Origin: Chitinophaga pinensis
GTDB lineage: Bacteria > Bacteroidota > Bacteroidia > NS11-12g > UBA9320
Assembly (NCBI GenBank): GCA_945889315.1
Contig: CAMDBP010000001.1
Location: forward strand, 1 to 45,004
DNA length: 45,004 nt
Reading direction: 5' to 3'
Below the pieces are notes generated by a model that did not search any database, was not told where the DNA came from, and saw nothing but the letters and a program-made list of their open reading frames with translations. Of the stretch, positions 22,029 to 37,089 are shown piece by piece. Positions within the stretch are counted from its first letter, which is position 1. Every line of letters begins with the position of its first letter. A program made the position numbers and the translations under genes.

Positions 22029-22097
22029 GAGTTAGATTTTTTTTGAACCGTGCGTTTAATTAATTTTCTAATTTCCAATCATACAAAAACACACATA

Positions 22098-24368
22098 ATG
22101 AAAAAAATAATTTTAATGGTCACCATGCTAAGTAGTCTCTGGGTAAAAGGGCAACACGAGCAACATGACATAAGTGGGACCGTTACGTACACCATTGGTG
22201 ACAAGATACGTCCTATAGCGGGAGCCTTTGTGCACTGGCAAGAAAACCCTAGCGGGGTTTATGCCGATAGTACAGGACATTTTAAGATAGAGCATCATCA
22301 TGAAGCGCCTTACCTAATTGCATCATTTGCTTCGTATAAATCTGACACTATCTACGTCAAAGACCTTACAAGACCGGTAGTATTTACCTTAAAAGATCAA
22401 AACGAATTGCAAGGAGCTACCGTCTTTGCAAAAAAACTCAGTTATAGCCTGAGTAAATTAGACCCTAGAACTACTATACTAATGGATGAACGTGAGTTTC
22501 AAAAAGCGGCATGCTGTAATCTATCCGAGAGTTTTGAAAATTCACCCGCTATAGATGCCAGTTTTGCCGACGCCGTAACCGGCACCAAGCAGATAAAAAT
22601 GCTAGGTTTAGATGGCTTTTATACCTTAATAGGGCAGGAATATATGCCTTCTGTGCGAACACTCAACAGTTATTACGGCTTAAGTTACATCCCTTCTGCG
22701 TGGGTAGATGCTATACAAATTACCAAGGGAGCCGGCAGCGTTGTAAATGGGTACGAGAGTATTGCAGGTCAAATTAACGTAGAACTAAAAAAGCCATTTG
22801 GCAAAGAAAAGCTAGTGCTAGACCAGTTTGTGAGCGACGGCGGTCGCTCTGAAACCGATTTTATGTACGTAAAGGATATAAATCAAAAAGTGGCAACTTC
22901 TGTTTTTGGTCGATATGCCTACCGTGGTTCTAATTTCGACAGAAATGACGACGGATTTTTAGATGTTCCACTGTCTAAAGATTATAAACTCATGAACAGA
23001 TGGCAATTTATAAACGACGTAGGGCTTGAAGGAATAGCCACAGCAAGCTACCAACGCAACATCCACGAAGCCGGACAAACCGCGTTTACCAACGGCGATA
23101 AAAATGCTTATGGTATTGGAATAGACGCTGAAGTTTTTGACGTTTCTGCCAAACTGGGCAAGGTTAATAAAAACAAGCCATACAGCAGTTTTGGCTCTCA
23201 GTACAACTTTAATTACTCCAATTTAACCAGTACCTATGGATCTGTAGAAGATAATAAATCCTATGAAGCACGTGCCGATCAAGCATACGTCAACTTGCTT
23301 TATCAAAGTATTATTGGTAACACTTTTCATCAGTTTCAAACTGGCCTTTCTTTTCTATTTGACAATACCAGTGAGCGTTATGATGGCTTTTATTTTAGCA
23401 GACAAGAGGCGGTTCCTGGTGCTTTTTTCGAATATACCTACAAACCAAAAGAGACCTTTAGTTTAGTAGGTGGCATTAGAACGGATTACAATTCTATTTA
23501 CGGACTTTCTATAACGCCTCGTTTTCATGGCAAATACCGATTTAACCAAGAAAAGACCTCACTTCGCATGTCTGCAGGAATGGGCAGAAGAACCAGTAAT
23601 CCCTTAGCTCAAAACCAACAAATTTTTGCCAGTGGGCGTACATTGATAATAGAAATGACTAACCCCAATTTGGCTTACGGACTAGAACAAGAAGTTGCAC
23701 TAAATTCGGGTTTGAGCTTTGAACATGAATTTAGATTACTTTTTATGCCCGCCACCATCGGCTTAGATTATTTTAATACCACATTTCTGCAAGAAGTTGT
23801 AGTGGATAGAGAGACTGAAGGTGTTGCTCGTTTTTATAACATGAAGAATGGCACTCGGGCTCATAGTTTTCAAACCCAATTAGACTTGCAGCCTGCAAGA
23901 AGAACCGACATTAGAATAGCCTATCGTATGTTTGATGTACAAACCAAATACCAAGATTTGGGTACCCTTGCTAAGCCTTTTATCTCGAGGCACAGAGCAT
24001 TTATCAACCTTACACAAAAAACCAGAAAAGACTGGCAATTTAGCTCTACTGCAACATGGAACGGGAGGCAGCGTATTGCAGGCAAATTTTACCATCTCAT
24101 GCCCATTCCGCATAACATCAATCCGATATATAACCCATACGATATAGCTTCTCCTAATTTTATTTTATGGAACGCCCAAATAAGCAAAACCTTCAAGAAA
24201 CAATTTGAAGTGTATATAGGAGCAGAGAATTTATTGAATTACAAACAAGAAAACCCTATACAAGAAGCCGATAAACCATTTAGCAGTAACTTTGATGCAG
24301 GATTGGTATGGGGCCCTATATTTGGTAGAATGATATATGGAGGATTTAGACTAAGACTAAAATCATAA
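22098..24368 (+). CDS. TonB-dependent outer-membrane receptor, probably for copper
   Basis: From ATG 22098 the product has 756 residues. The order is signal peptide (about 1-18), a CarboxypepD-reg-like beta sandwich (about 22-110, with a His-rich HFKIEHHHEAPY stretch), a plug domain (about 125-235, including KAACCNLSESFENSPAIDASF and ITKGAGSVVNGYESIAGQINVELKKP), and a 22-strand-type barrel to the C-terminus. The CC pair in the plug is a known feature of one Bacteroidota TonB group found beside heavy-metal genes. The receptor would bring a ligand across the outer membrane using TonB energy. Copper is inferred from the downstream HMA, MbnP and MbnH genes. The open frame extends to 22050 without a signal peptide, so I chose 22098. 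The TAA overlaps the next ATG by one base. Confidence 0.88.
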   Translation: MKKIILMVTMLSSLWVKGQHEQHDISGTVTYTIGDKIRPIAGAFVHWQENPSGVYADSTGHFKIEHHHEAPYLIASFASYKSDTIYVKDLTRPVVFTLKDQNELQGATVFAKKLSYSLSKLDPRTTILMDEREFQKAACCNLSESFENSPAIDASFADAVTGTKQIKMLGLDGFYTLIGQEYMPSVRTLNSYYGLSYIPSAWVDAIQITKGAGSVVNGYESIAGQINVELKKPFGKEKLVLDQFVSDGGRSETDFMYVKDINQKVATSVFGRYAYRGSNFDRNDDGFLDVPLSKDYKLMNRWQFINDVGLEGIATASYQRNIHEAGQTAFTNGDKNAYGIGIDAEVFDVSAKLGKVNKNKPYSSFGSQYNFNYSNLTSTYGSVEDNKSYEARADQAYVNLLYQSIIGNTFHQFQTGLSFLFDNTSERYDGFYFSRQEAVPGAFFEYTYKPKETFSLVGGIRTDYNSIYGLSITPRFHGKYRFNQEKTSLRMSAGMGRRTSNPLAQNQQIFASGRTLIIEMTNPNLAYGLEQEVALNSGLSFEHEFRLLFMPATIGLDYFNTTFLQEVVVDRETEGVARFYNMKNGTRAHSFQTQLDLQPARRTDIRIAYRMFDVQTKYQDLGTLAKPFISRHRAFINLTQKTRKDWQFSSTATWNGRQRIAGKFYHLMPIPHNINPIYNPYDIASPNFILWNAQISKTFKKQFEVYIGAENLLNYKQENPIQEADKPFSSNFDAGLVWGPIFGRMIYGGFRLRLKS

Positions 24369-25084
24369 TGGAAGAAAAAGAAATAACTATCGCAGGTATT
24401 TCCTGCATGAGTTGCGTGAGCAAAATAGAAAAAGCCTTATATAGCAATGCAGCTATACAAAAGGTAAGTATAGATAAAGAAACAGGGAAAGCATTGCTGA
24501 GTGGCGCTAGCTTACCACATCAAGATATCATTACATCCTTGGTGGAGTCTGCTGGTGACTACAAAATAGATGCAACGTATGTAGCGGCCAAGAAGTCTAA
24601 GACTAGCATGCAGAGTTACAAACCCTTACTAATTATTGTTCTCTACTTGCTTGGGACAACCTTACTTATTGAATACAGTAGTGGCATGTTCTTGGTAGAA
24701 ACATGGATGGCTAATTTTATGGCAGGTTTTTTTATCATTTTTTCGTTCTTTAAGATGCTTGACATTCCTGCGTTTGCTATGGCTTATCGGTCGTACGACC
24801 TCGTGGCGGCAAAAGCAAAATGGTACGGTTATGCTTTCCCATTTATAGAGCTTGGACTGGGTATAGCTTATTTGCTTTATTCTGACCAAAGCATTACACA
24901 TTTAATTACCGCAGTAGTTATGTTTGTAAGTCTTATAGGGGTTATACGTTCGGTAATTAATAAGTCTGAGATACAATGTGCCTGTCTCGGTACGGTTTTT
25001 AATTTACCTATGAGTTATGTTACTATTATAGAAGATGGTATCATGTTAGTAATGGCGCTTTTGATGTATTTAAAATTTTTATAA
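24368..25084 (+). CDS. HMA domain fused to a MauE/DoxX-like membrane protein
   Basis: The 238-residue protein joins an N-terminal heavy-metal-associated domain (about residues 4-70, GISCMSC with Cys13 and Cys16, the classic copper-binding CxxC) to four or so transmembrane helices (about 85-238). The membrane part resembles MauE/DoxX, with GYAFPFIELGLGIAYL and a conserved CACLGTVFNLPMS loop whose two Cys could relay thiols or metal. MauE is known from methylamine dehydrogenase maturation, where it acts beside MauG. Here it sits beside the MauG-like MbnH. It probably handles copper or redox equivalents at the inner membrane. It overlaps the receptor stop by one base and MbnP follows after 2 bp. 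Confidence 0.82.
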   Translation: MEEKEITIAGISCMSCVSKIEKALYSNAAIQKVSIDKETGKALLSGASLPHQDIITSLVESAGDYKIDATYVAAKKSKTSMQSYKPLLIIVLYLLGTTLLIEYSSGMFLVETWMANFMAGFFIIFSFFKMLDIPAFAMAYRSYDLVAAKAKWYGYAFPFIELGLGIAYLLYSDQSITHLITAVVMFVSLIGVIRSVINKSEIQCACLGTVFNLPMSYVTIIEDGIMLVMALLMYLKFL

Positions 25085-25086
25085 AA

Positions 25087-25842
25087 ATGAAAAAAACAGT
25101 AATCATAGCATTCAGTGCACTTTTGATAGGCTTTGCCGGATGTAAACCTGAAGAGGAAGAACCAAAACCAGATTTACCGCAAGAAGTATCAGACATGACT
25201 GTCACTATTAATCATAAACTAGGAGCAGAAGATCTTGATTTTGTATCTACTTTTACGCTACCAAGTCAGGAAACAGTTTCCTTCGGTAGATATGCCTATA
25301 TATTGAGTGAGTTTTACCTAACCACGATGGACGATACCAAGGTTTCTTTAGGAAAACAATACGCTTATATACAAGTAAATGGTGACAAAACCAGTTTCAC
25401 ACTTAAAAATGTACCGATGGGAAATTACAAATCACTGGGATTATCCATTGGCCTAGATTCGGCAACCAATCATGGCAACCCGAATGTGTATATGTCAGAA
25501 CATCCATTGGCACCTATCAACAACTCGCTTTATTGGGGATGGACAGCTGGCTACGTATACACTGCGATAGAGGGAATTACAACCGCCAATAATGAAAGTT
25601 TTATTTTTCATTTATCTGGAGTTCACAACAAAACCGATTTTGACTTACCTATTTACTTTACAAAGAAAGAAGCGGCGCTTAAAGCTATACTTGAGTATGA
25701 TGTAGCAGAAGTATTTCAAAATCCAGAAACCTATACTATCAGCATAGATGGGGCCAGTACACACAGCATCACAGACCCTGTAACTACTAAACTATTTGCC
25801 AATATGGTAGATGTGTTTAGTGTTAAAAGCATAACAGAATAG
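25087..25842 (+). CDS. MbnP family copper-binding lipoprotein (locus 1)
   Basis: The 251-residue product has a lipoprotein signal with the lipobox GFAGC (Cys19) followed by an acidic linker. The body matches the MbnP family: VTINHKLGAEDLDF near the start and the family core LYWGWTAGYVYTAIEG with Trp150 and Trp152. In characterised MbnP a conserved Trp is oxidised to kynurenine by MbnH and helps form a copper site. Which Trp is used here is not known. It is preceded by the HMA-MauE gene (2 bp) and followed by MbnH (4 bp). The lipid anchor places it on the inner or outer membrane facing the periplasm, or on the cell surface. Confidence 0.85.
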   Translation: MKKTVIIAFSALLIGFAGCKPEEEEPKPDLPQEVSDMTVTINHKLGAEDLDFVSTFTLPSQETVSFGRYAYILSEFYLTTMDDTKVSLGKQYAYIQVNGDKTSFTLKNVPMGNYKSLGLSIGLDSATNHGNPNVYMSEHPLAPINNSLYWGWTAGYVYTAIEGITTANNESFIFHLSGVHNKTDFDLPIYFTKKEAALKAILEYDVAEVFQNPETYTISIDGASTHSITDPVTTKLFANMVDVFSVKSITE

Positions 25843-25846
25843 ACCT

Positions 25847-26956
25847 ATGAAAAAACTGGGAGTCATATTGTTTTTAATAGCCAGCATTTATGCATGTAAA
25901 GATGTCATAAATGAAATTCCAGACACCCCTTTTAGCACCACACCGTATGTCTTCACCTATGATAAGGCACTACTTCCACCACCTAGAATACCTGCCGACA
26001 ACCCTATAACAGCAGAAGGCGTTTTTCTAGGTAGAATGCTATTTTACGATCCTATTCTAAGTGCAGATAGCTCTCAAAGTTGCGGTAGCTGTCACAACCA
26101 ATCTAGAGGATTTACGGATAACGGAAAAGAATTTAGCATGGGAATAACGGGGGCTATCGGTAAACGGAACTCAATGCCTATTTTTAATTTAATGTGGCAT
26201 TTGGATGGTTTATTTTGGGACGGTAGATCAGATGTATTGCGCCATCAGGCTATAACGCCTATAACTGATCCTACGGAAATGAATGAAACAGTGGGAAATG
26301 TGTTGGCTAAACTAAATAACAGTCCGTTGTATAAAGAACATTTTAAAAAAGCATTTAATGCGCAAGAACCCAGCGAAGAATTGTTGGGTAAGGCACTAGA
26401 GCAATTTATGATGAGTATTGTTTCTGGCAATTCTAAGTTTGATAGAGTAGCCTTGGGCATTGATAAATTTACAGCCCAAGAGAAGGTTGGTCAACTCATA
26501 TTTAATTCGGAAGCTATAACTATTGACAATGAAATAGACCCGAAAAATCCTCAAAACTTCGGCGCGGATTGTTTCCACTGCCATGGCAATAGTTTATTTA
26601 TGCGTAGAGAATTCCTAAACAACGGATTGCCCAGTAACGGGGATTTGGGACAGGGAGCAATAACTGGCAACCCAAAAAATGATTGTAATTTCAAAACACC
26701 AAGTTTGCGAAACATAGAAAAAACTGGCCCGTATATGCATGATGGTCGATTTAAAACGTTAGAAGAAGTAGTGCAGTTCTACTTAGGACCTATGAAAGAC
26801 AATTGCAATAGTTTAGCCAACAGTCCCAATATGCATGCACTTAAAGATTCTGTATATTTGAGTCCCGCTCACAAAGCAGCTCTAATATCGTTTTTAAAAA
26901 CCTTAACCGACGACGAATTATTAACCAAAGAAGAATATTCAAATCCATTTAAATAA
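25847..26956 (+). CDS. MbnH-like di-haem cytochrome c peroxidase/MauG family lipoprotein (locus 1)
   Basis: The 369-residue protein has a lipobox SIYAC (Cys17) and two CxxCH haem-c sites: CGSCH (Cys79, Cys82, His83) and CFHCH (Cys242, Cys245, His246). The surrounding LGRMLFYDPILSADSSQSC, WDGRSDVLRHQA and GPYMHDGRFKTLEEV stretches are typical of the bacterial di-haem peroxidase/MauG superfamily. Because it follows an MbnP gene by 4 bp, I read it as MbnH, the enzyme that makes kynurenine in MbnP, rather than a plain hydrogen peroxide-reducing peroxidase. Sequence alone does not prove the choice. Confidence 0.83.
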   Translation: MKKLGVILFLIASIYACKDVINEIPDTPFSTTPYVFTYDKALLPPPRIPADNPITAEGVFLGRMLFYDPILSADSSQSCGSCHNQSRGFTDNGKEFSMGITGAIGKRNSMPIFNLMWHLDGLFWDGRSDVLRHQAITPITDPTEMNETVGNVLAKLNNSPLYKEHFKKAFNAQEPSEELLGKALEQFMMSIVSGNSKFDRVALGIDKFTAQEKVGQLIFNSEAITIDNEIDPKNPQNFGADCFHCHGNSLFMRREFLNNGLPSNGDLGQGAITGNPKNDCNFKTPSLRNIEKTGPYMHDGRFKTLEEVVQFYLGPMKDNCNSLANSPNMHALKDSVYLSPAHKAALISFLKTLTDDELLTKEEYSNPFK

Positions 26957-26970
26957 TAACAATTAATAAC

Positions 26971-27333
26971 ATGAAGAACATAATTTTAGCCGTATTAATG
27001 GTCGCTACACTAGGTGTATCCGCCAAAACAATTACCAAACAAATCTTAGTGAAAGGGGAGTGCGGAATGTGCAAAGAGAAAATTGAAAAAGCATTAGACA
27101 TGCCAGGTGTATCATTCGCAGAGTGGAATGCCGAGACTAAAATGCTAACTGTACGTTACAATGATAAAAAAGTAACTGAGGACAAACTACACGAAACCAT
27201 TAGCACTTTGGGTTACGCTACCGACAAAATGGAAGCAAACAAAGATAGCCAAGGTAAACTAGACAAATGTTGCCAACCTAAAAAACCAGCATGCGCTTCT
27301 GAGAAAGCTGGATGTTGCCAAAAGAAATCGTAA
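26971..27333 (+). CDS. Secreted heavy-metal-associated (HMA) protein with Cys-rich tail
   Basis: The 120-residue product starts with a signal peptide (MKNIILAVLMVATLGVSA) and carries an HMA domain (about residues 20-85, GECGMC with Cys31 and Cys34). It ends in a Lys/Cys-rich tail containing CCQ, PAC and GCC. It is the last gene of locus 1, 14 bp after MbnH. It most likely acts as a periplasmic copper chaperone or sponge; copper rather than zinc or mercury is inferred from the MbnP/MbnH context. Confidence 0.85.
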   Translation: MKNIILAVLMVATLGVSAKTITKQILVKGECGMCKEKIEKALDMPGVSFAEWNAETKMLTVRYNDKKVTEDKLHETISTLGYATDKMEANKDSQGKLDKCCQPKKPACASEKAGCCQKKS

Positions 27334-27442: not shown

Positions 27443-29185
27443 CTACTGATTGTTCTGCTCCCTAATCAGTATGCATTTTTTAATCACCTGGAAACCGCTG
27501 TAGTCGCAAATAGCATAATAGGTACCCGGTGGATTTTTACTCAAATCAATAACAATTGGATGCGACGCTGAAATCACGTTACTTTGGTAAACGGTTCTTC
27601 CTAGTACATCACGCACCTCTATCGCTGTCAAATTTTGTAATCCCTTCAAGGTAAATTTACCAGAAGATGGATTTGGGTAAACTACGGTATGAATTTCCAT
27701 AGCAATCGCATTAAACCCAGCACTAGAGGTGTCTTTCACCGTAGTATCTTGTTGTGTGGTATCTTGATGTGTAGTTGTATCTATCCCATTACATGCCGTA
27801 GGCCAAGGGTCTACTTCTAGTGGTAATCCAGGCGTTAGTGTTCTCCCTGTAAATGCACTATAGTCTTTACCATATTTATAGGTTCTAAAGGTCACGTTCA
27901 GCGATGGAGCGTCTCCTTGTTTCGTAAAGTTTGAATTTTTCATTGGATTAGTATACTCCCAAACTACGGAGTCTGCGCTCAAGTCGTATTCTGTATATTT
28001 TCCTTTGGTTGCTTCGGTAAAATAAAGATTACCATTAGGTAAAACCGTAGCAGAAGCCATAATTCCTGAGAAAAACTCTTGCGGCACTTTCTTGGTAAAT
28101 CTAAAATCAGGTGCTGATGGGCTGTATTTACCATTTGAGCCTAACGTATATTTCATGCCATCCCAAGATGGTGTAATAATGTCGATTGCTGAGTAGTTAG
28201 GTCCCGCCATATTATTAAAGGTAATGATGCTATTGGTATAATCACCATATTGTACCCAGTGAGGATCATGCTGACCATTAAACACTTGATCGGTATCACC
28301 CCCTTGATTATACGCCGCTGGATTTCCCCATCTATAAAGTATATCACCACCTTTACCTTGCGCACCACCTATGTGACCTGAACTTTGACTGCTTGTTGTG
28401 CCGTGATCTATTATGTAAATTTCATCAAATGTGTGTCCGCTTAAGGCAATTTGATCTAACTCAGCATTATACGATACAGAATTAAAATGCAGCCAATCCT
28501 TAAAAGTACCGATACCTTCTGGTCTGTAGTTTAAATTTAACAATTCTGGTGAGCTTGCTACGATGCCATAATTAGTCAATTTTTCATCAATATCTTGAAC
28601 GATGTGCTCGGAAGCTTTCCATTGCCAAACAATATTAGCGCCTGTAGCTCCTGTAGGTTGCAATTCCAACACTAAATCGTCCCAGATTTCTCCCAAACCC
28701 ATTTCATTATTGGGGTCTCTACCCATATTACGAACTTGAGGTGCTGGAATTTTTTTCCAAACATTACATAAAATGTTACCGTTAGGCATTATTTCGATAT
28801 CGTGATGCAAGGTCATAGTATCGTTAGATAATTTATACTTCCATTGCAAAGCTCCGCTCCAACTATAGCGTTCTATAAAACCTTGAGAACCTCCACCCAC
28901 AAAAACAGTTGCAGGATCTATTGATGTTTTGATAAGATCTCCATTAGGCTGCAAATAGGCAATTAAGGTATTGCCACTAGTAGTCCATTGATGAATTTTT
29001 TGGCCACAGTTATTAATTAAATAGACTGTCGGACTATTATACGTATAAATCAAGGTATAACTATCAAAAGCAGTTGGTGAATTAACCGTAGTGCCAACGG
29101 TTTGTATTTGTGCAATCGCTGCTGCTGTAAAAAGGATAAGACCTAATAAAAAAGAGCGTTGGAACAATTTAATAAATTTGAACAT
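27443..29185 (-). CDS. Aryl-sulfotransferase-like beta-propeller protein with T9SS sorting domain
   Basis: The 580-residue protein has a signal peptide ending AIAQ (about residue 25) and an arylsulfotransferase (ASST)-like body with LHHDIEIMPNGNILCNVWKK, DWLHFNSVSYNAELDQIALSGHTFDEIYIIDHG, FNGQHDPHWVQYGDYTNSIITFNN and WEYTNPM. A Thr/Asp/Gln-rich linker with repeated QDTT units (about 470-490) follows. The last 75 residues (VYPNPSSGKFTLKG...) are a T9SS type A sorting domain. ASST enzymes move sulfate from aryl sulfates to phenols; the active-site His needed for this may be one of the HD/HH positions above, but activity is not proven. It converges on copper locus 1 across a shared terminator. 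Confidence 0.8.
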   Translation of the reverse strand: MFKFIKLFQRSFLLGLILFTAAAIAQIQTVGTTVNSPTAFDSYTLIYTYNSPTVYLINNCGQKIHQWTTSGNTLIAYLQPNGDLIKTSIDPATVFVGGGSQGFIERYSWSGALQWKYKLSNDTMTLHHDIEIMPNGNILCNVWKKIPAPQVRNMGRDPNNEMGLGEIWDDLVLELQPTGATGANIVWQWKASEHIVQDIDEKLTNYGIVASSPELLNLNYRPEGIGTFKDWLHFNSVSYNAELDQIALSGHTFDEIYIIDHGTTSSQSSGHIGGAQGKGGDILYRWGNPAAYNQGGDTDQVFNGQHDPHWVQYGDYTNSIITFNNMAGPNYSAIDIITPSWDGMKYTLGSNGKYSPSAPDFRFTKKVPQEFFSGIMASATVLPNGNLYFTEATKGKYTEYDLSADSVVWEYTNPMKNSNFTKQGDAPSLNVTFRTYKYGKDYSAFTGRTLTPGLPLEVDPWPTACNGIDTTTHQDTTQQDTTVKDTSSAGFNAIAMEIHTVVYPNPSSGKFTLKGLQNLTAIEVRDVLGRTVYQSNVISASHPIVIDLSKNPPGTYYAICDYSGFQVIKKCILIREQNNQ

Positions 29186-29382: not shown

Positions 29383-29390
29383 TACTTTTG
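29383..29390 (+). promoter_or_regulatory. -7 promoter element (TACTTTTG) of the 1087-residue BNR gene, near-leaderless
   Basis: This exact TAnnTTTG match ends 6 bp before the ATG at 29397. It contains the TTG that would be the alternative upstream start at 29388, so that TTG is promoter, not coding. Confidence 0.65.
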
Positions 29391-29396
29391 ACGCAA

Positions 29397-32300
29397 ATGA
29401 AGTGGAACATAAATTTGCTTAAATGTATTTTGATAACGTTTTGCAGCTCTTTGTTGAGCTCGGCAGAAGCTCAAAGTACTAAAATTACGTGGGACAGTAT
29501 TAATACGAATGCGATAAAAATGCGTAGTGTAGGTCCTGCTTTTATGGCGGGCCGAATAGCCGATATTGCGATAGACCCCAAAGACGAAAGCCACTATTAC
29601 GTAGGTGTAGCCTCCGGCGGCGTATGGGAAACCGTGAATGCAGGAGTTACCTTTTCTCCTGTTTTTGATGGACAAAAAGTATACAGCATAGGTTGTATTA
29701 CGATTGATGCAAATACCGGCAACCTATGGGTAGGGACCGGCGAAAATGTAGGTGGACGACACATAAGCTATGGCGATGGCATTTATCTAAGTAAGGATGG
29801 CGGCAAGTCTTGGCATAATATGGGACTCAAAACCTCTGAACACATTTCTAAAATAGTAGTGCATCCTACTAATCCAGATATTGTATGGGTAGCTAGTCAA
29901 GGGCCTTTATGGACCAAAGGTGGCGAACGCGGCGTATACATGACCACCGATGGCGGTAAGAAATGGAAACGCACCTTGGGCGATAGCGATTGGACAGGCG
30001 CTACCGACATCCTTATTGATCCTAGAAATCCAGAAGTGTTATACGCCGCAACTTGGCAAAGACACAGAACGGTGGCAGCCTACATGGGCGGCGGTCCTGA
30101 GTCTGCTATTTATAAAAGTACCGATGGAGGTAAAGAATGGGAAAAACTAAAAACCGGCCTGCCAAACGGCAATATGGGTAAAATAGGAATGGCTATATCA
30201 CCACAAAATCCAGATGTTATATACGCTGCCATAGAGCTGGATTTGAAGAAAGGTGGTTTTTACCGAAGCAGTAACAAAGGTGCAAGCTGGCAAAAAATGA
30301 GTGATATGGTAGCCGGTGGTACAGGACCACATTATTACCAAGAAATATATGCTAGTCCGCACGAGTTTGATAAGGTATATTTTGCCAACAACTATCTTAT
30401 GGTAACCGCAGATGGTGGCAAAACCTTTCAAAACGTAAACGAATCGTCAAAACACGTAGATAATCACACGGTAGTATTTAGACAAAGCGATCCCGATTAC
30501 CTCATGGTAGGTACCGATGGTGGGGTGTATGAAAGTTTTGATATGGCCAACTCATGGCGACACTTGGGTAATATGCCCATTACCCAATATTACAAAATAG
30601 CATTAGATGATGCCAAGCCGTTTTACAGTATATACGGCGGCACGCAAGATAACAATACCCAAGGTGGACCCAGTAGAACCAATACTAACAGTGGCATGAC
30701 GAATGCAGACTGGAAAGTGGTGCTGGGTGGTGACGGTCATCAACCCGCTACCGAACCTGGCAATCCTAATATAATATATGCACAAAGCCAAGAAGGATAT
30801 TTTACACGAATAGACATTGCCAGCGGCGATAAAGTAGCCATACGACCCCAACCAGCATACGGCGAATCGTATGAGCGATATAACTGGGATGCCCCTATTT
30901 TGGTAAGTGCTCACAGTCCTAGCAGAATTTATGTAGCATCCCACCGTCTTTGGAAATCGGATGACCGAGGAGATACATGGAATGCTATTTCCGGGGATTT
31001 AACCCGAAACGAAGAGCGGTTTAATTTACCAATTATGGGTCGCAAACAAGGACTTACCAACGCCTGGGATGTATATGCGATGAGTAATTACAATACCATT
31101 AGTAGTATAGCAGAAAGCCCCAAAAACGAACAATTAATGTATATTGGTACAGACGACGGATTCATACAAATAACAGAAAACGGTGGCAAAACGTGGGATG
31201 CTACTGAGGTCAAAAAGTTGCCCGGAGCTCCAGATCGGGGGTATATAAATGACATAAAAGCAGATTTATTTGATGAAAATACCGCATACCTCGCCTTAGA
31301 CAATCATAAAAATGGAGACTATAAACCATACTTGTATATGACTACAAACAAAGGCAAGTCGTGGAAGTGTATCTCTAGCAATATCCCCGAAAATAATTAC
31401 GTATGGCGTATCGTTCAAGACCATATAAATCCGAATTTGCTTTTTGTAGGCACAGAGTTTGGCTTGTACTTTACCGTAGACGGTGGCGAGCATTGGAAAC
31501 AAATAAAAAGCGGAGTTCCTACTATTTCGTTTCGGGATTTAGCGATACAACGCAGAGAGAACGACTTGGTGGCTGCCAGTTTTGGTCGAAGTATTTACAT
31601 TCTGGATGATTATTCTTTTTTGCGTGACCTCACACCTGAGCTAGTAGAAAAAGATGCTGCTATGTTAGCAATGCGAAATGCTTACCTATACACCCCCGTA
31701 AATGACGGCAGAGGTAAAGACGGTTACTTGGGTAGTCAAGAATATGTGGCTGAAAACCCAGAATATGGCGCAGTATTCACTTACTACCTAAAAGGAGAAC
31801 AAACGCTAAAAACCGCAGAGCGAACTAAAAAGGAGAAAGAGCTGAATAAGGCAGGAACAGATATTGATTTTGCAGGTTGGGATGTATTACTTGCCGAAAA
31901 GAATGAAACCAAAGAACAACATTGGGTAGTAATAACCGATGATAAGAATAAAGTAGTGCGTAAAATGCAAGTTCCATCTGGCAAAGGATTACATCGCTTT
32001 ACGTGGGATTTTAGTGCTGAAAATGCCATGCCCATAAACACAGGCGAAAAGTTAAACGAAAATAAAAATGGTGGATTTAGAGTGGGTCCAGGGACGTACC
32101 GTATTACGCTTTATTACGTATACCAAGGCAAAGCAATTCCAGTAACTACCCCAAAAAGTTTTGACGTTATTCCATTATATCCAGGAACGTTACCCTCCAA
32201 AAACGATGGCGTTAAAAACACCTTTATCGCACAATATGTGGCCGTTTCTTCTCGCAAAAGCCTTTTGGAATATGATTTTAACCAAGCCAAAAAACAAGCA

Positions 32301-32660
32301 TCTGCTATGGAATTGGCCTTAAAAAGATCTCCCAATTCTCTTGGCGCCTTAGAGTCTGAATTAGTCGACCTAAATAATGAACTAAGAAATCTAGATCTTC
32401 TCTTAGAAGGCAATCCACTCAAAGATGAAGTGGGTGAAAAAAATATTCCAACTATAAACGAGCGAATATGGGCAGCCAGTAGTGCTTTGTGGGGCGGAAA
32501 CGGTTACGGCCCAACTACTACAGCACAGCAAAGTTTGGATATAGCAGAACGTATGTTAGCTGACTTTGATGCTAAGCTCGCGGTTATAAAACTGAAGGCT
32601 GCTACTATTTACGAAGAATTGAAAAAATCTGGTGCTCCTTTAATACGAGGCATGGAGTAA
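29397..32660 (+). CDS. Large secreted BNR/VPS10-type propeller protein
   Basis: The 1087-residue product has a signal peptide ending SSAEAQ (about residue 26). Many Asp-box repeats follow (for example SKDGGKSW, TTDGGKKW, STDGGKEW, SSNKGASW, TADGGKTF, TENGGKTW, TTNKGKSW, TVDGGEHW), which form one or two sortilin-like ten-blade or seven-blade propellers over about residues 30-740. The C-terminal 330 residues hold a beta domain (about 770-920) and a helical end (about 935-1087) but no T9SS sorting domain. It belongs to a family usually annotated as glycosyl hydrolase or VPS10 protein; no hydrolase active site could be identified. It is divergent from the ASST-like gene and lies between the two copper loci without an obvious link. 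Confidence 0.83.
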   Translation: MKWNINLLKCILITFCSSLLSSAEAQSTKITWDSINTNAIKMRSVGPAFMAGRIADIAIDPKDESHYYVGVASGGVWETVNAGVTFSPVFDGQKVYSIGCITIDANTGNLWVGTGENVGGRHISYGDGIYLSKDGGKSWHNMGLKTSEHISKIVVHPTNPDIVWVASQGPLWTKGGERGVYMTTDGGKKWKRTLGDSDWTGATDILIDPRNPEVLYAATWQRHRTVAAYMGGGPESAIYKSTDGGKEWEKLKTGLPNGNMGKIGMAISPQNPDVIYAAIELDLKKGGFYRSSNKGASWQKMSDMVAGGTGPHYYQEIYASPHEFDKVYFANNYLMVTADGGKTFQNVNESSKHVDNHTVVFRQSDPDYLMVGTDGGVYESFDMANSWRHLGNMPITQYYKIALDDAKPFYSIYGGTQDNNTQGGPSRTNTNSGMTNADWKVVLGGDGHQPATEPGNPNIIYAQSQEGYFTRIDIASGDKVAIRPQPAYGESYERYNWDAPILVSAHSPSRIYVASHRLWKSDDRGDTWNAISGDLTRNEERFNLPIMGRKQGLTNAWDVYAMSNYNTISSIAESPKNEQLMYIGTDDGFIQITENGGKTWDATEVKKLPGAPDRGYINDIKADLFDENTAYLALDNHKNGDYKPYLYMTTNKGKSWKCISSNIPENNYVWRIVQDHINPNLLFVGTEFGLYFTVDGGEHWKQIKSGVPTISFRDLAIQRRENDLVAASFGRSIYILDDYSFLRDLTPELVEKDAAMLAMRNAYLYTPVNDGRGKDGYLGSQEYVAENPEYGAVFTYYLKGEQTLKTAERTKKEKELNKAGTDIDFAGWDVLLAEKNETKEQHWVVITDDKNKVVRKMQVPSGKGLHRFTWDFSAENAMPINTGEKLNENKNGGFRVGPGTYRITLYYVYQGKAIPVTTPKSFDVIPLYPGTLPSKNDGVKNTFIAQYVAVSSRKSLLEYDFNQAKKQASAMELALKRSPNSLGALESELVDLNNELRNLDLLLEGNPLKDEVGEKNIPTINERIWAASSALWGGNGYGPTTTAQQSLDIAERMLADFDAKLAVIKLKAATIYEELKKSGAPLIRGME

Positions 32661-32682: not shown

Positions 32683-32711
32683 AAAAGGAAAGCCATTGGC
32701 TTCCCTTTTTT
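32683..32711. terminator. Bidirectional terminator between the BNR gene and the YHYH gene
   Basis: A 12-position stem (11 pairs, one A-C mismatch) with an ATT loop is flanked by A and T runs. It serves both convergent units. Confidence 0.7.
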
Positions 32712-32729
32712 AATAGTATAATTTACCAC

Positions 32730-34097
32730 TTACCTTGTAATCACAACGGCTTTTGAAGTACTAGACTTCCCGTTTGATATTTTTACAAAATAGGCTCCTT
32801 CATATACCGTTTGCACATCAAAATACGCTATCGTTTGTCCTTTATTTATGTGGGTACTGCTTATTAATTTTCCCGTTACATCTAGGAGTTCTATGGTCAT
32901 GTCTTCCGTCACTAAGTTTCCTATTTGTATAGCAATTAAATCCGTTGCTGGATTAGGAAATACATTAATGTCTAGACGATTAACATCATTTACATTTCCT
33001 GTACTAGTAGTGTAAACCGTAGTAGTCTCGCCTACAGATGTCACCTTTGCATTGGTTCTTGTCCCATAAAATGTTGGCCCAACTGCATAAGGATACGTAG
33101 AGTTCCAATTTTCATCTACCGTACAGAAATAAGCATACGTTCCATTAGGATACTCAGGAGTAACACAGAATCTACCATTGTGCTCATCTAGGTAAGTCTC
33201 GTCAGCGTTAGTTGCGAATACATAATCTTCTCTAAAATAACCCAAAAAATAAGTGCCACTAATTGCAGGCCCTGTTGCTGAAGCACTGCCATCTGGCTTG
33301 GTAGTTCGTGTAGTTATATTTCTAAGGCTATAGCCCGATTTCATTCGGCTTATGCCTCCTGTTCCGTCTTTTTTGGTATAGCCATACGCTCCGTAAATCG
33401 GAAATCCATCATAGGCAAAACCTATCAATGGGGCGTGTTTGGTATCGTCTATTACATACAATCCATCAGCATCGTACAGATTACAAATGTCTGATATTAC
33501 CGTTTTGTCCAGTTTGAAAGCAGATGGATTTTGGTGGTGGTGATAATTACCCATGGCCGGATGGCCTTTAGCGCAATCAAATCCGGCTTTTTCGGCAGGT
33601 ATGGCATCTCTGTTCCAGTCTTGAGTTGCATTGGGTCCTCCAGGGCAAGGCGAGTTACCCGGACCACCACAAAGTGATTGCGTATTGGGGTTCCATGCTA
33701 CGCCGTCTCGGTAATCAAATAGTGCAACACCATTTATAAAAAGACCGATATTCCCTCCCGTGGTGACCATAGGTGCTCCGCTATTGGCCGCTGGATTTAA
33801 TGGGAACTTGTAAATCCCATTTTGGTTAGTTGCATTGCTTGGATTGCCATCGTTAAACGGCCCTGTTGGATAAGAAGGAATTCCCGTTGCGGTGACATAC
33901 ACAAAATCAGCAGAGTACTCTACTTTTTGGCAGTTATACAAAATATTGTTTTGGGTTAAGGTTGGATTTCCTTTAGGATAATAGGTGCCTGTTCCTTTGG
34001 TATTTTGCATCCACGAGCCAATGGCTGGACTTAGTTGAGCTAAAGCAGACGAAGCCAAAAGCAAAAAGCAGAATTGTGATAAAATTATTTTTTTCAT
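32730..34097 (-). CDS. YHYH-domain secreted protein with T9SS sorting domain (copper locus 2)
   Basis: The 455-residue protein has a signal peptide ending ALAQ (about residue 21), a YHYH domain and a T9SS type A sorting domain (about 375-455, INVFPNPATDLIAIQIG to KAVVITR). The name-giving motif reads NYHHHQNP (residues 184-191), so the second Tyr is His. Other features are GFDCAKGHPAMG, LIGFAYDGFPIYGAYGY and CVTPEYPNGTYAYF. The function of YHYH domains is not established; the clustered His suggests metal binding. It is the last gene of the locus 2 operon, 36 bp after MbnH, which suggests its substrate or ligand is metal-related too. Confidence 0.83.
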   Translation of the reverse strand: MKKIILSQFCFLLLASSALAQLSPAIGSWMQNTKGTGTYYPKGNPTLTQNNILYNCQKVEYSADFVYVTATGIPSYPTGPFNDGNPSNATNQNGIYKFPLNPAANSGAPMVTTGGNIGLFINGVALFDYRDGVAWNPNTQSLCGGPGNSPCPGGPNATQDWNRDAIPAEKAGFDCAKGHPAMGNYHHHQNPSAFKLDKTVISDICNLYDADGLYVIDDTKHAPLIGFAYDGFPIYGAYGYTKKDGTGGISRMKSGYSLRNITTRTTKPDGSASATGPAISGTYFLGYFREDYVFATNADETYLDEHNGRFCVTPEYPNGTYAYFCTVDENWNSTYPYAVGPTFYGTRTNAKVTSVGETTTVYTTSTGNVNDVNRLDINVFPNPATDLIAIQIGNLVTEDMTIELLDVTGKLISSTHINKGQTIAYFDVQTVYEGAYFVKISNGKSSTSKAVVITR

Positions 34098-34133
34098 TTA
34101 GTTAAGGTTTTTAATATAGACGTATTTAAAATG

Positions 34134-35156
34134 TTATTCCTTCTTGGATTGCCCTATTCCTAGAGGATATTTAGTATCAGGGTTAAAAATAAATTCTTGG
34201 TCATTGAGCGTAAGCAGAAAAGCAATGATATCCGCTTTTTCGTTGGAACTAAGTTTTATTCCTTGCTGCAATTCTGGTGCAAGGGTTTCACTTCTTATTA
34301 TCCCTGCGGCATAGTGGGCTAAAACATCATTCAACTTTTTGAATCTACCATCGTGCATATACGGAAAGGTATAAGACAAATTACGGAGCGAAGGAACTTT
34401 AAAAAGCAAGCTGTCTTGTGGTCTTTGCGTAACCTTCCATCTCCCATAATCACGCAATGTTGCATCAATAGCTAAACCGTTATTTGCAAAGGAATGATTA
34501 GTAAATAAAGGCTCGGAATGGCAGGTATTACAATGTGTTTTAAATAAACTATACCCTGAAAATTCTTGCGCAGTAAATTGTTCTTCGCCTTTTTGCACAC
34601 GATCGTACTTTGCATTTGCGGAAATAAGGGTAAGCTGAAAAGCAGTTAAGGCCTTTAGTATACGCTTACTCGTAATCTCATTATCGCCATATGCGTTTGA
34701 AAATAACTTGGCGTACCCATACTTTAAATGAAGCTTTTCGATAATATTTCCGATGCTTTCATTCATTTCTCCAGGATGCGTGATAGGTGCTAAGGCTTGC
34801 ACATCCAAATGATTACTTGCGCCGTCCCACATTAAGTTTTTTTGCCAAGCTAAGTTGAAAAGTGCTGGGGCATTTCGTGTACCTATTTCGTCATTTATAC
34901 CATGACTTAAATCGTGGTCTGTATGCGCAAAGGCATTATACGGCGAGTGGCAAGAAGCGCACGAAATAGTATTATCATAGGATAACATAGGATCATAAAA
35001 CAGCGCTCGTCCCAGTAAAATTTGATCGTCTGAAGCAGAATCGAGAGCATATACAGGTTTTGGAAAGTAACTCGGGAACTTTTGTGTAACCAGAAGGTTT
35101 CCTGCAAAACAGAAAAAGGAAAGTATTAGCATTATCAGCGTCTTACTTCTACTCAT
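34134..35156 (-). CDS. MbnH-like di-haem cytochrome c peroxidase/MauG family protein (locus 2)
   Basis: The 340-residue protein starts with a signal or anchor segment (about residues 6-23) without a clear lipobox. It has two CxxCH sites: CASCH (Cys66, Cys69, His70) and CNTCH (Cys209, Cys212, His213), plus LGRALFYDPMLSYDN, MWDGASNHLDVQALAPI and FPYMHDGRFKKLNDVLAHY as in the locus 1 protein. It overlaps the MbnP gene by 4 bp (ATGA type). It is probably the enzyme that oxidises a Trp of its neighbour MbnP; a plain peroxidase role remains the alternative. Confidence 0.83.
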   Translation of the reverse strand: MSRSKTLIMLILSFFCFAGNLLVTQKFPSYFPKPVYALDSASDDQILLGRALFYDPMLSYDNTISCASCHSPYNAFAHTDHDLSHGINDEIGTRNAPALFNLAWQKNLMWDGASNHLDVQALAPITHPGEMNESIGNIIEKLHLKYGYAKLFSNAYGDNEITSKRILKALTAFQLTLISANAKYDRVQKGEEQFTAQEFSGYSLFKTHCNTCHSEPLFTNHSFANNGLAIDATLRDYGRWKVTQRPQDSLLFKVPSLRNLSYTFPYMHDGRFKKLNDVLAHYAAGIIRSETLAPELQQGIKLSSNEKADIIAFLLTLNDQEFIFNPDTKYPLGIGQSKKE

Positions 35157-35845
35157 TGGATACTAAAAAAAGAAGCGAGTAATTTTGACAGTTCAACCGC
35201 ATTTGCACTCGGGCTCATCGTATGGTTATTATTGTGAATATCTACCTTATCGAAAAACGGTGCGATATCCCATAAGAGGACAATATCTGCCTTGTTAGTG
35301 AGATTCAACTTGACTTTTTGCAAGGCATTATAAGGTGACAAATAACCTCCTAAGTGAAATTGGAACTGATTGTTTCGAGCGGTGCTGGCCGTACTAATTC
35401 CTTCTAATTTTGCATTAATGTAACCGCTTTGCCACGTCCAATACATGCCCAAGCTGGGATCTAGCGCACCATCCAGCGCACCACTATTATTCGTGACACT
35501 ATCTATACCCAAGTTAAACGATAACTCAGTATATAAAGTTGCTGTATCAACTTTACCTAAAAGCCAGGTTCGGGGTTCGAAAACGTCAATCAACAAATAA
35601 TCTTCAAGATGCGTTCCCTTCCTACTCAAAGATTCCTTTAGCATTGCATTAGAGATATACAATTTACAGGTTTCTATTCTAATTGTATCTCCTTTGGAAT
35701 TGGTATAGACAGAGTCTAGACTTAAAATATTGGAATGATAAACAGGAAGAATAGATAGTGTGCGTTGTGCCACCCCACACAAGGGAAGCATCACCCAAAA
35801 GGCAAGTATAACAGTAAATATTCTTCCCTGCATAAGGTTAATCAC
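35153..35845 (-). CDS. MbnP family protein (locus 2)
   Basis: The 230-residue product has a signal peptide (hydrophobic about residues 9-25, ending GVAQ) and no lipobox, unlike the locus 1 copy. The family core reads LGMYWTWQSGYINAKLEG with Trp136 and Trp138, closer to the usual family pattern than the YWGW of locus 1. Other shared features are LYISNAML and LSFNLGIDS. Met5 is an alternative start, but the Met1 codon overlaps the sensor gene stop by 4 bp, which fits the operon style. The protein probably holds copper in the periplasm after oxidation by the MbnH partner. Confidence 0.82.
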   Translation of the reverse strand: MINLMQGRIFTVILAFWVMLPLCGVAQRTLSILPVYHSNILSLDSVYTNSKGDTIRIETCKLYISNAMLKESLSRKGTHLEDYLLIDVFEPRTWLLGKVDTATLYTELSFNLGIDSVTNNSGALDGALDPSLGMYWTWQSGYINAKLEGISTASTARNNQFQFHLGGYLSPYNALQKVKLNLTNKADIVLLWDIAPFFDKVDIHNNNHTMSPSANAVELSKLLASFFSIQ

Positions 35846-36294
35846 TTTCTTGGCGGCCCCTGTTTCTCTGGTTTAAATATCTGTGCCAACTCTTGAGCTA
35901 ACGTATTAAAATTATCCATTTGATCAGGACGACACAACGCTCTAATATCACTAAAATGATCATAATTTATCATCTCCACTTCTTTTTGTAGCATTGAAAT
36001 GGCCGTCAATAAAGAATCTGTTTGTTGGTCCTGCATTGGTTTACTCAACTGAGTATACAACTCATTTTTCAAGCCAAACAGGGCATCTCTCTTTGCGCGC
36101 ATCGAAGCTTGATGGGCTGTAATCAGTTCTTCATAATCCTTTCGTTGATTGACATCCAAGTCCAAAATTTCAATGACCTTTTCTTTAGGCTCGTGTCCTC
36201 GTTTTCCTTTACGACTCAGTATAAAACTAATTAAGACAATATTAGAAAGCAGCAACACGACGATTGCACCTATGTAAAATTTACTTCTATTCAT
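35842..36294 (-). CDS. Membrane-anchored CnrX/Spy-like metal-sensor protein
   Basis: The 150-residue protein has one N-terminal transmembrane helix (about residues 7-26) followed by a Lys/Arg stretch. A long helical periplasmic domain (about 40-140) with DLDVNQRKDYEELITAHQ and HFSDIRALCRPDQMDNFNTL, in the style of the LTxxQ/CpxP-CnrX family, ends GPPRK. CnrX-type proteins sense periplasmic metal and release an anti-sigma factor. The order sigma, anti-sigma, sensor here supports the same logic. The metal ligands cannot be assigned with certainty; His, Cys and Met are present in the second half. It overlaps the anti-sigma gene by 8 bp. Confidence 0.75.
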   Translation of the reverse strand: MNRSKFYIGAIVVLLLSNIVLISFILSRKGKRGHEPKEKVIEILDLDVNQRKDYEELITAHQASMRAKRDALFGLKNELYTQLSKPMQDQQTDSLLTAISMLQKEVEMINYDHFSDIRALCRPDQMDNFNTLAQELAQIFKPEKQGPPRK

Positions 36295-36571
36295 AATACA
36301 ATTGATAATTTTCTAGTTCTATAAGACCTATAGTCGTTGATTCAGCAACTGTATTATCCTTCATGCTAATGACTGTGGCATCAACAGCCAACAGCAAAAG
36401 AACTGCCGCCGCCATAGTCTTAACCCAAAGCATGGGAACCGTTTGAGTGTTTACCTCCTCTATTTTATGAATTACGTTTGCGTACAGTGACGCTGGAGCC
36501 TCAACCGGTTTTATTTTACTGAGTATGTTTAACACAGAAGGCACTAGCTTTATAGACTCTTTCTCGTTCAT
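36287..36571 (-). CDS. Short one-helix anti-sigma-like protein
   Basis: The 94-residue product has a soluble N-terminal half (about residues 1-45), one transmembrane helix (about 47-65, KTMAAAVLLLLAVDATVI) and a short periplasmic tail. It resembles CnrY-like short anti-sigma factors in size and layout but shows no zinc-binding ASD motif. The assignment rests on its place between the ECF sigma gene (4-bp overlap) and the sensor gene (8-bp overlap). Confidence 0.6.
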   Translation of the reverse strand: MNEKESIKLVPSVLNILSKIKPVEAPASLYANVIHKIEEVNTQTVPMLWVKTMAAAVLLLLAVDATVISMKDNTVAESTTIGLIELENYQLYYE

Positions 36572-37089
36572 TTTCCTTCGTTCATTTTTAAAATTATTCC
36601 TAAATTACTTTTTGCTCGTTGATAAAGAGATTCAATCGCTTTAACACTTGTGTTCATTATTACAGCTGTTTCAACTTGGGTTTTTTGTTCTATTTTAAGA
36701 AGAATTATAACTGTTTTCTGTTTGTCTGATAATTTATTGATTCCCCGAAATATGGCTGCCATCCCTTCTTTGTCCTCTAACAACACCCCTGGATGATTAA
36801 AGTCGGGTACGGTTACATTATTCCATAAATCACCTATTCTGATCGCTTCAAAAAAGAAACTTCGTTTGGCTCTTTTTTTAGACCTTAAAAAATCTAACGA
36901 TTGATTAACAGTAATACGATAAATCCAGGTTTTAAGCTCTGAGCGTTCCCCGAAGGTATGTATTTTTTGATGTACCTTCACAAATACATCTTGAGTTATC
37001 TCCTCTGCATCAGCTGTATTTTGCGTGTATTGCAAGGCAAGATTATAAACCAAATTTTTGTGCTCGTTATATACGGATGAGAAAGACAA
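36568..37089 (-). CDS. ECF-family RNA polymerase sigma factor
   Basis: The 173-residue product has sigma region 2 (about residues 5-75, with NTADAEEITQDVFVKVHQKI and WIYRITVNQSLDFLRSKKR) and region 4 (about 115-168, LSDKQKTVIILLKIEQKTQVETAVIMNTSVKAIESLYQRAKSNL). It heads the locus 2 operon. The plus-strand lhgO gene is divergent. Its likely targets include its own operon, because all six genes run in the same direction with overlaps. Confidence 0.92.
   Translation of the reverse strand: MSFSSVYNEHKNLVYNLALQYTQNTADAEEITQDVFVKVHQKIHTFGERSELKTWIYRITVNQSLDFLRSKKRAKRSFFFEAIRIGDLWNNVTVPDFNHPGVLLEDKEGMAAIFRGINKLSDKQKTVIILLKIEQKTQVETAVIMNTSVKAIESLYQRAKSNLGIILKMNEGK

Follow-up and report, generated by a model that had tools for sequence, protein, structure and literature searches.

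Six consecutive genes on the minus strand of a stretch of Chitinophaga pinensis DNA (contig CAMDBP010000001.1, positions 1 to 45,004; this whole stretch of 45,004 nucleotides is hereafter called the window) form one tight operon, at positions 32730-37089. In order, they encode: (i) an extracytoplasmic function (ECF) sigma factor; (ii) a short anti-sigma candidate; (iii) a CnrX-like periplasmic sensor; (iv) an MbnP-family protein; (v) an MbnH/MauG-type di-haem enzyme; and (vi) a YHYH protein carrying a sorting tail of the type IX secretion system (T9SS). The same gene order recurs in other genera, in other families and outside the class, more often than chance would give. MbnP, MbnH and YHYH constitute the steady core of this arrangement, while the regulator comes and goes. 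We lean, with some reserve, towards reading the operon as a conserved, self-contained envelope unit in which a copper-linked switch of the ECF/CnrX type governs an MbnP/MbnH pair serving T9SS-exported proteins. The six-gene unit is probably copper-related.

Layout and recurrence of the operon

The six genes overlap by 4, 8, 4 and 4 bp, after which a gap of 36 bp precedes the last one (Table 1). The original prediction had described this minus-strand run as one tight operon, and its genes, coordinates and spacing were all confirmed. Four of the six proteins (sigma factor, MbnP, MbnH and YHYH) are named by Pfam above cut-off. Directly past the YHYH stop codon lies a terminator-like stem-loop of 12 pairs; the terminator scan as a whole gave 3 sites against a shuffle mean of 4.1, that is, no excess over shuffled sequence. 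A comparison of replacement and silent substitution rates (dN/dS), based on few changes, gave more silent than replacement change per site for MbnP, MbnH and YHYH. The sigma factor, the anti-sigma candidate and the sensor differ from their nearest relative by 3, 1 and 0 sites, respectively, and the comparison is hence uninformative for them.

Recurrence was examined in the 80 loci closest to the window's MbnP among 532 relatives on genome contigs, a set which is not random but was picked independently of gene context. The record titles of these loci include Chitinophagaceae, Saprospiraceae, Flavobacteriaceae, Ignavibacteria and Candidatus Kapaibacterium. MbnH directly follows MbnP in 79 of the 80 loci. 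Of the 66 loci with at least 1.5 kb of downstream sequence, 57 have YHYH no further than 6 kb away on that side, and in 47 it is the next gene. The sigma factor and sensor genes stand directly upstream in 30 of the 69 loci with at least 1.8 kb of upstream sequence, and a sigma gene is found within 6 kb in 33. A multicopper oxidase and a sulfatase are present in 12 and 7 of the 80 loci, respectively. Among the proteins scanned for it, a T9SS tail was found on two multicopper oxidases, one sulfatase and one CotH protein.

In the window's own genome and those of 57 relatives, MbnP occurs in 55 of the 58 genomes, with 115 places in all, of which the window accounts for two. From the relatives, 80 regions were fetched over part of the other 113 places, and these contained 85 MbnP frames, 15 of the operon subtype and 70 of others. 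As a control, neither sigma factor nor sensor was found upstream of any of the 61 other-subtype frames with at least 1.8 kb of upstream sequence. The operon-subtype frames have sigma factor and sensor upstream in 10 of 11 cases (same upstream length) and YHYH in 15 of 15, two counts with some circularity, since gene context had guided the choice of loci for the subtype profile; the control count (0/61) is independent of this. Only one frame assigned to the other subtypes has YHYH downstream, and it is an operon-type copy truncated by the end of its contig (L051). The 58 genomes contain 25 long YHYH matches (at least 175 bits), 21 of which have MbnP on their contig at a distance of about 6 kb or less. 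As for the remaining four, one follows MbnH at a contig start (L206), one opens its contig (L207), and two, shorter in form, stand apart (L198, L199).

A wider draw across the phylum covered 296 genomes including the window's own, proximity being counted in the 295 others. There, an MbnP matching the operon profile is found no more than 6 kb from 4 of the 110 sensor places and from 9 of the 47 YHYH places; a sensor is near 6 of those 47. Chance would give about 0.05-0.1 for each pairing, assuming genomes of 3.5 Mb and random placement. Operon-type MbnP scoring at least 190 bits was found in four other genomes of the draw, with a sensor in three of the four and a YHYH gene within 6 kb in three of the four. 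The neighbourhood check that the original prediction had called for thus finds the ECF/sensor module again beside MbnP/MbnH and YHYH, and an arrangement unique to this genome is rejected, given that the same gene set recurs in relatives. The proposed coupling of sensing to MbnP/MbnH and YHYH does recur, but it is optional, the module being adjacent in only those 30 of 69 loci.

How readily the regulator comes and goes was scored on a tree of 72 MbnH proteins, 35 of them with sensor or sigma factor. This label needs 17 changes, at least 7 of them forced, on a tree in which 26 of the 69 inner branches are open and three loci (L155, L166, L185) were scored as lacking the sensor module. In L155 and L166, a gene for a CotH-like protein separates MbnP from the sigma factor, small gene and sensor upstream of it; in L185, YHYH is placed between sensor and MbnP. 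The sensor module as a fixed part of the unit is consequently rejected.

Two further gene contexts were observed around the core (Table 1). A CotH-kinase-like protein is encoded directly upstream of MbnP in L155, L166 and L177, and that of L155, the one run through Pfam, has a T9SS tail. A di-haem peroxidase-like gene follows YHYH in two Flavobacterium loci, L173 (F. sedimenticola, in the 80-locus set; Pfam-checked) and L176.

Table 1. Positions of the operon genes, of adjoining features in the window and of related features in other loci (window positions unless a locus is given)
Feature	Position	Strand	Remarks
ECF sigma-70 factor	36568-37089	-	173 aa, TTG start as listed; first gene of the run
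Anti-sigma candidate	36287-36571	-	94 aa; 4-bp overlap with sigma gene
CnrX-like membrane-anchored periplasmic sensor	35842-36294	-	150 aa; 8-bp overlap with anti-sigma candidate
MbnP-family protein, operon subtype	35153-35845	-	230 aa, GTG start; 4-bp overlap with sensor
MbnH/MauG-type di-haem enzyme	34134-35156	-	340 aa; 4-bp overlap with MbnP
YHYH protein with T9SS type A sorting tail	32730-34097	-	455 aa; 36-bp gap after MbnH
Possible operon terminator	32683-32709	-	12-pair stem, T-rich tail; consensus match only
Sortilin/Vps10 and BNR repeat protein	29388-32660	+	1090 aa; convergent with the operon
Arylsulfotransferase-like protein with T9SS tail	27443-29185	-	between the two MbnP clusters
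Second MbnP/MbnH run, other subtype	22050-27333	+	TonB receptor, MauE/HMA protein, MbnP, MbnH, HMA protein
Second sigma/small gene/sensor run with second YHYH and further long proteins	L192 3152-13742; L209 803-9809
CotH-kinase-like protein	L155 7540-9813; L166 7597-9876; L177 4235-6505		directly upstream of MbnP
Di-haem peroxidase-like gene	L173 13104-14288; L176 13134-14309		after YHYH

The regulatory module

The sigma factor is recognised by Pfam through Sigma70_r2 (71.3 bits) and Sigma70_r4_2 (37.8 bits). The anti-sigma candidate, whose gene sits between those of sigma factor and sensor, has a single hydrophobic segment (approximately residues 44-72) and no match in Pfam or NCBIfam; when a profile of its orthologues was applied, most loci with a sigma gene proved to have a small gene at that position. 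The sensor matches the Pfam family Metal_resist at 19.4 bits, below the cut-off of 29.2. Its AlphaFold2 model was computed from an alignment of 35 sequences (the window's and those of loci from the 80-locus set) and has a mean predicted local distance difference test (pLDDT) score of 87, with a membrane helix at residues 3-28 followed by a helical hairpin. When this model was compared with the PDB by Foldseek, ranks 1 to 15 were all CnrX or NccX, with probability 1.00, template modelling scores by target of 0.70-0.78 for 14 of the 15 (0.56 for NccX) and E values of 0.004-0.045, none of them at or below 0.001; ZraP and CpxP also appear, ranked below. The sensor is therefore predicted to have a CnrX fold with an N-terminal membrane helix, and these first 15 matches back the CnrYXH-like layout that had been noticed originally.

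The metal ligands tell a different story from the fold. We take the ligands of CnrX to be H42, H46, E63, H119 and M123, of which E63 and M123 appear in the titles of PDB entries matched by Foldseek. The sensor family profile aligns with NccX over most of its length, weakly (E = 0.17), and in this weak alignment the five ligand positions correspond to K37, I41, I58, H113 and I117 of the sensor, so that one of the five is kept. The residues conserved among the 35 sequences are H61 (34), E107 (28), H113 (32), C121 (32) and Q125 (35). In consequence, the earlier assignment as a CnrX-type metal sensor stands for the fold but not for the metal ligands, and a plain Ni/Co CnrX is rejected, with four of the five ligands replaced. 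The nearest known relative of the module is CnrYXH of Cupriavidus metallidurans (together with NccX), with which it shares an ECF sigma factor, a short anti-sigma candidate and a membrane-anchored sensor of CnrX fold. CnrYXH serves a resistance-nodulation-division (RND) pump. The window's module differs in (i) its gene order, which is sigma-anti-sensor; (ii) the four replaced ligands, with H61, E107 and C121 conserved instead; and (iii) its neighbours, which are MbnP/MbnH/YHYH and not an RND pump.

The module is also found away from MbnP. Strong sensor matches (at least 100 bits) number 18 in the 58 genomes, 14 of them directly upstream of MbnP. The sensors of genomes G030 (L192) and G034 (L209) head a further run that lies shortly downstream of the MbnP operon and includes a second YHYH protein; the run of L192 includes two calcineurin-like phosphatase proteins identified by Pfam, one of which has a T9SS tail above cut-off. 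In L193, the sensor module lies beside YHYH, an EF-hand protein, a MORN protein and SCO1, a member of a copper chaperone family; in L195, sigma factor, small gene and sensor precede a multicopper oxidase without MbnP; and in L194, a weaker sensor match, the order is sigma factor, small gene, sensor, Spy-like protein, YHYH, one gene and SCO1.

Of the sensor regions in the phylum draw, 20, almost all of them top-ranked, were examined for sigma factor and small gene. Operon-type MbnP is present in three of them (L224, L226 and L231). Among the other 17, a sigma gene is named in 16 (the exception is L213), the sensor frame was left uncalled by the script in L227, YHYH follows the sensor in L213, L219 and L223, and SCO1 is found in L219 and L223. 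The sensor module is thus a general device of Bacteroidota, whose link with copper genes is repeated, not universal.

YHYH and SCO1, with at least one gene between them and no tie to MbnP, occur together recurrently, both with the sensor module (L193, L219, L223) and without any (L201, L202, L210). The intervening gene encodes a MORN protein in L193 and L219, the two that were scanned. These neighbourhoods resemble the operon in placing YHYH beside a gene for copper handling, a copper chaperone, and, in the first three, in the sigma-anti-CnrX-like module; they differ from it in having SCO1 instead of MbnP/MbnH.

MbnP, MbnH, YHYH and the adjoining genes

The operon MbnP scores 131.6 bits with PF20243 (Pfam cut-off 27), and 32.1 bits with the NCBIfam model MbnP_like_WxW (TIGR04052), whose cut-off is 140. 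Similarly, MbnH scores 182.2 bits with CCP_MauG of Pfam, and falls below the NCBIfam cut-offs of both TIGR04039 (MbnH; 204.9 against 362.85 bits) and TIGR03791 (MauG; 209.5 against 443.85 bits). An MbnP-MbnH pair is indeed present, with the WxW motif, the His and the two CXXCH motifs; the names given originally hold for the Pfam families but not at the level of the NCBIfam named models. Since both proteins lie well under those cut-offs, they represent a divergent subtype, and MbnP is not filed as an MbnP_like_WxW equivalog.

Residues M134, W136, W138, H164 and M210 are invariant in 81 of 81 operon-subtype MbnP proteins (the window and the 80 loci), an invariance that is partly forced, as the 80 loci were found with two peptide patterns, one of which includes M134, W136 and W138; the same five are also invariant in 13 rows from loci found by Pfam search. 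The window contains a second MbnP, and the 21 proteins close to it keep WxW and the His, with M134 replaced by Leu in all 21 and M210 never Met (Thr 11, Ser 4, Glu 3, Asp 3). At position 34, Pro is found in 59 of the 81 operon-type proteins, as against His in 19 of the 21 of the second type. Searches of the PDB with MbnP, by single sequence and by profile, returned no relative at E values up to 1. In MbnH, the haem motifs C66xxC69H70 and C209xxC212H213, together with Y282, are conserved in 77 of 77 proteins, and sequence searches of the PDB relate it to di-haem peroxidases, to a 'Di-heme enzyme' (6e1c) and to MauG. MauG has a Tyr where peroxidases have the Met haem ligand, and Y282 is a candidate counterpart. 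A 2021 paper on MbnP/MbnH, whose abstract is said to report a neighbourhood analysis, reportedly found that MbnH oxidises the first Trp of WxW to kynurenine, with copper bound near a His, a Met and that kynurenine. The residues of the window's pair fit such a kynurenine copper site.

Several known systems resemble this pair. That of the methanobactin operons of Methylosinus trichosporium OB3b shares an MbnP beside a MauG-like di-haem enzyme, WxW, and the invariant His and Met; the window's pair differs in lying below both NCBIfam cut-offs and in having as partners an ECF/CnrX-like module and T9SS cargo, and general scans of the window's genes, in which no search was aimed at methanobactin, named no methanobactin gene. 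CorA/CorB of methanotrophs likewise place a secreted or surface copper protein beside a di-haem peroxidase gene, and CorA/MopE proteins have no marked sequence similarity to MbnP, according to PMC3621798. The copper site of MopE includes kynurenine (PMC3423442). No ECF/CnrX module is named for CorA/CorB or MopE in the consulted portions of these two sources (PMC3621798; PMC3423442).

For methanobactin operons, some of which may include MbnP/MbnH, an ECF sigma factor of FecIR form is already in print. PMC3621798 describes, in four Methylosinus methanobactin operons, the ECF sigma factor MbnI, the FecR-like MbnR and a TonB receptor, the latter often neighbouring MbnP/MbnH in that operon group. 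The likeness to MbnI/MbnR with MbnT is an ECF sigma factor plus an anti-sigma/sensor protein in operons that may hold MbnP/MbnH; the difference is that the FecR-like sensor is proposed there to act with the TonB receptor (PMC3621798), whereas the window's operon has a sensor of CnrX fold. The six genes include no FecR match in Pfam and no TonB receptor, and so do not follow the FecIR type of control. Among the matches listed from full-text literature, a scope outside which most subscription journals fall, none joins a CnrX-type module with MbnP/MbnH and YHYH; we do not claim that this context is new to print.

The YHYH protein matches PF14240 at 188 bits (cut-off 25) over residues 96-332, and its tail matches Por_Secre_tail at 54.8 bits over residues 379-453 and TIGR04183 at 43.2 bits. 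SprA, the T9SS part that was searched for, is present in the window's genome (2449 bits). Export by T9SS, as originally proposed, is plausible because of this tail and the presence of SprA. The same prediction had called the protein His-rich, a description which the count rules out (7 His in 455 residues, 1.5%).

Three other features of the window adjoin the operon (Table 1). The run with the second MbnP/MbnH pair, of the other subtype, has counterparts in many relatives. Between the two MbnP clusters lies the gene for the arylsulfotransferase-like protein; at the corresponding place, relative L036 has two such genes side by side (named by likeness only). Finally, the Sortilin/Vps10-BNR gene is still beside the YHYH gene in L036 and L051.

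Proposed mechanism, alternatives and meaning

In the envelope unit that we favour, the events would be as follows. At rest, the short one-helix protein would tether the sigma factor to the membrane. A signal in the periplasm, copper being the likeliest, would act on the sensor through a rewired site (H61, E107, H113, C121), the short membrane protein would then release the sigma factor, and the operon would be transcribed. In the WxW motif of MbnP, MbnH would convert the first Trp to kynurenine by oxidation, thereby creating a Cu(I) site, and MbnP would hold copper and hand it to the exported YHYH protein and, in some relatives, also to a multicopper oxidase. Delivery of copper to YHYH is suggested by the neighbourhoods in which SCO1 replaces MbnP/MbnH beside YHYH, and by the similar sigma/sensor module found in some of them.

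Several observations weigh against this reading. Of the 69 loci, 39 lack an adjacent sensor module, a figure that falls to 36 when sigma genes up to 6 kb away are allowed for. Sensors of this type are present in 105 of the 296 phylum genomes, the window's own included, and with so common a sensor the signal need not be copper; nor is metal sensing given by homology, with a single CnrX ligand kept. For 14 of the 17 sensor regions that lack operon-type MbnP, the YHYH profile picks out nothing near the sensor (SCO1 was not profiled there), and several modules stand alone, for example, L217, L218, L225, L228 and L230. No promoter word or word pair shared by the upstream regions of 40 sigma genes stood clearly above a single shuffle, which leaves autoregulation a supposition. 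The AlphaFold2 model of YHYH (pLDDT 45.7) is too poor for a fold search. Besides, the sulfatase, CotH and phosphatase-like cargo of some clusters also fits a general programme for secreted enzymes.

This last point leads to the alternative that the unit switches T9SS-exported metallo-hydrolases (YHYH, sulfatase, phosphatase, CotH kinase) in response to envelope stress or nutrients, with MbnP/MbnH only supplying or protecting one metal centre and copper not being the signal. It draws on the sulfatases of the 80-locus set, on the T9SS tails of sulfatase and CotH proteins and the two phosphatase-like proteins of related clusters, on the sensor regions without YHYH, and on phage YHYH proteins, predicted to be Zn-binding, metal-dependent hydrolases (PMC7824862). 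We nevertheless consider it unlikely: MbnH and YHYH are more constant partners than sulfatase or oxidase, and SCO1 and multicopper oxidase recur beside such modules. If copper is the signal, the operon might instead serve detoxification: excess copper would induce it, MbnP and YHYH would act as sinks, and Cu(I) would be oxidised by the multicopper oxidase. In Cupriavidus, sensors of the CnrX type serve operons for resistance, and the 12 loci with multicopper oxidase agree with such a role; however, the six genes, the neighbours of which were not searched, include no P-type ATPase or RND pump, and copper handling would be shared with the separate TonB receptor/MauE-HMA/MbnP/MbnH/HMA run about 5 kb from the operon end, all of which makes detoxification quite unlikely in our judgement.

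Improbable, in turn, is a redox or misfolding sensor, in which the CnrX-like protein would sense oxidation via C121, or envelope damage in the manner of CpxP/Spy, and the di-haem enzyme would be a peroxidase. The conserved C121, the incomplete set of CnrX ligands, the presence of ZraP and CpxP in the fold search and the kinship of MbnH with di-haem peroxidases all speak for it. Nevertheless, CnrX and NccX outrank CpxP and ZraP, H61 and H113 look like metal ligands, and MbnH stands next to operon-type MbnP almost without exception.

The copper-linked envelope unit can also be extended into a surface copper-delivery circuit common to Bacteroidota, in which a CnrX variant with a new His/Glu/His/Cys site would sense copper and release its sigma factor, MbnP/MbnH, as a chaperone whose copper site is made after translation, would load YHYH, and SCO1 would be interchangeable with MbnP/MbnH. 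We regard this extension as doubtful.

As regards what the operon means, the pairing of a short anti-sigma candidate with a sensor of CnrX fold bears on a gap in Bacteroidetes, where, according to a survey, class I anti-sigma domains stand beside only 6% of ECF factors (PMC7406223). MbnP/MbnH pairs are widespread and what they serve is little known; here, they have a steady partner, YHYH, with a plausible export route. Close to half of the loci give the pair its own regulator, which turns that open question into a small genetic test. And, if the surface copper-delivery circuit were true, YHYH would be a new family of surface copper proteins.

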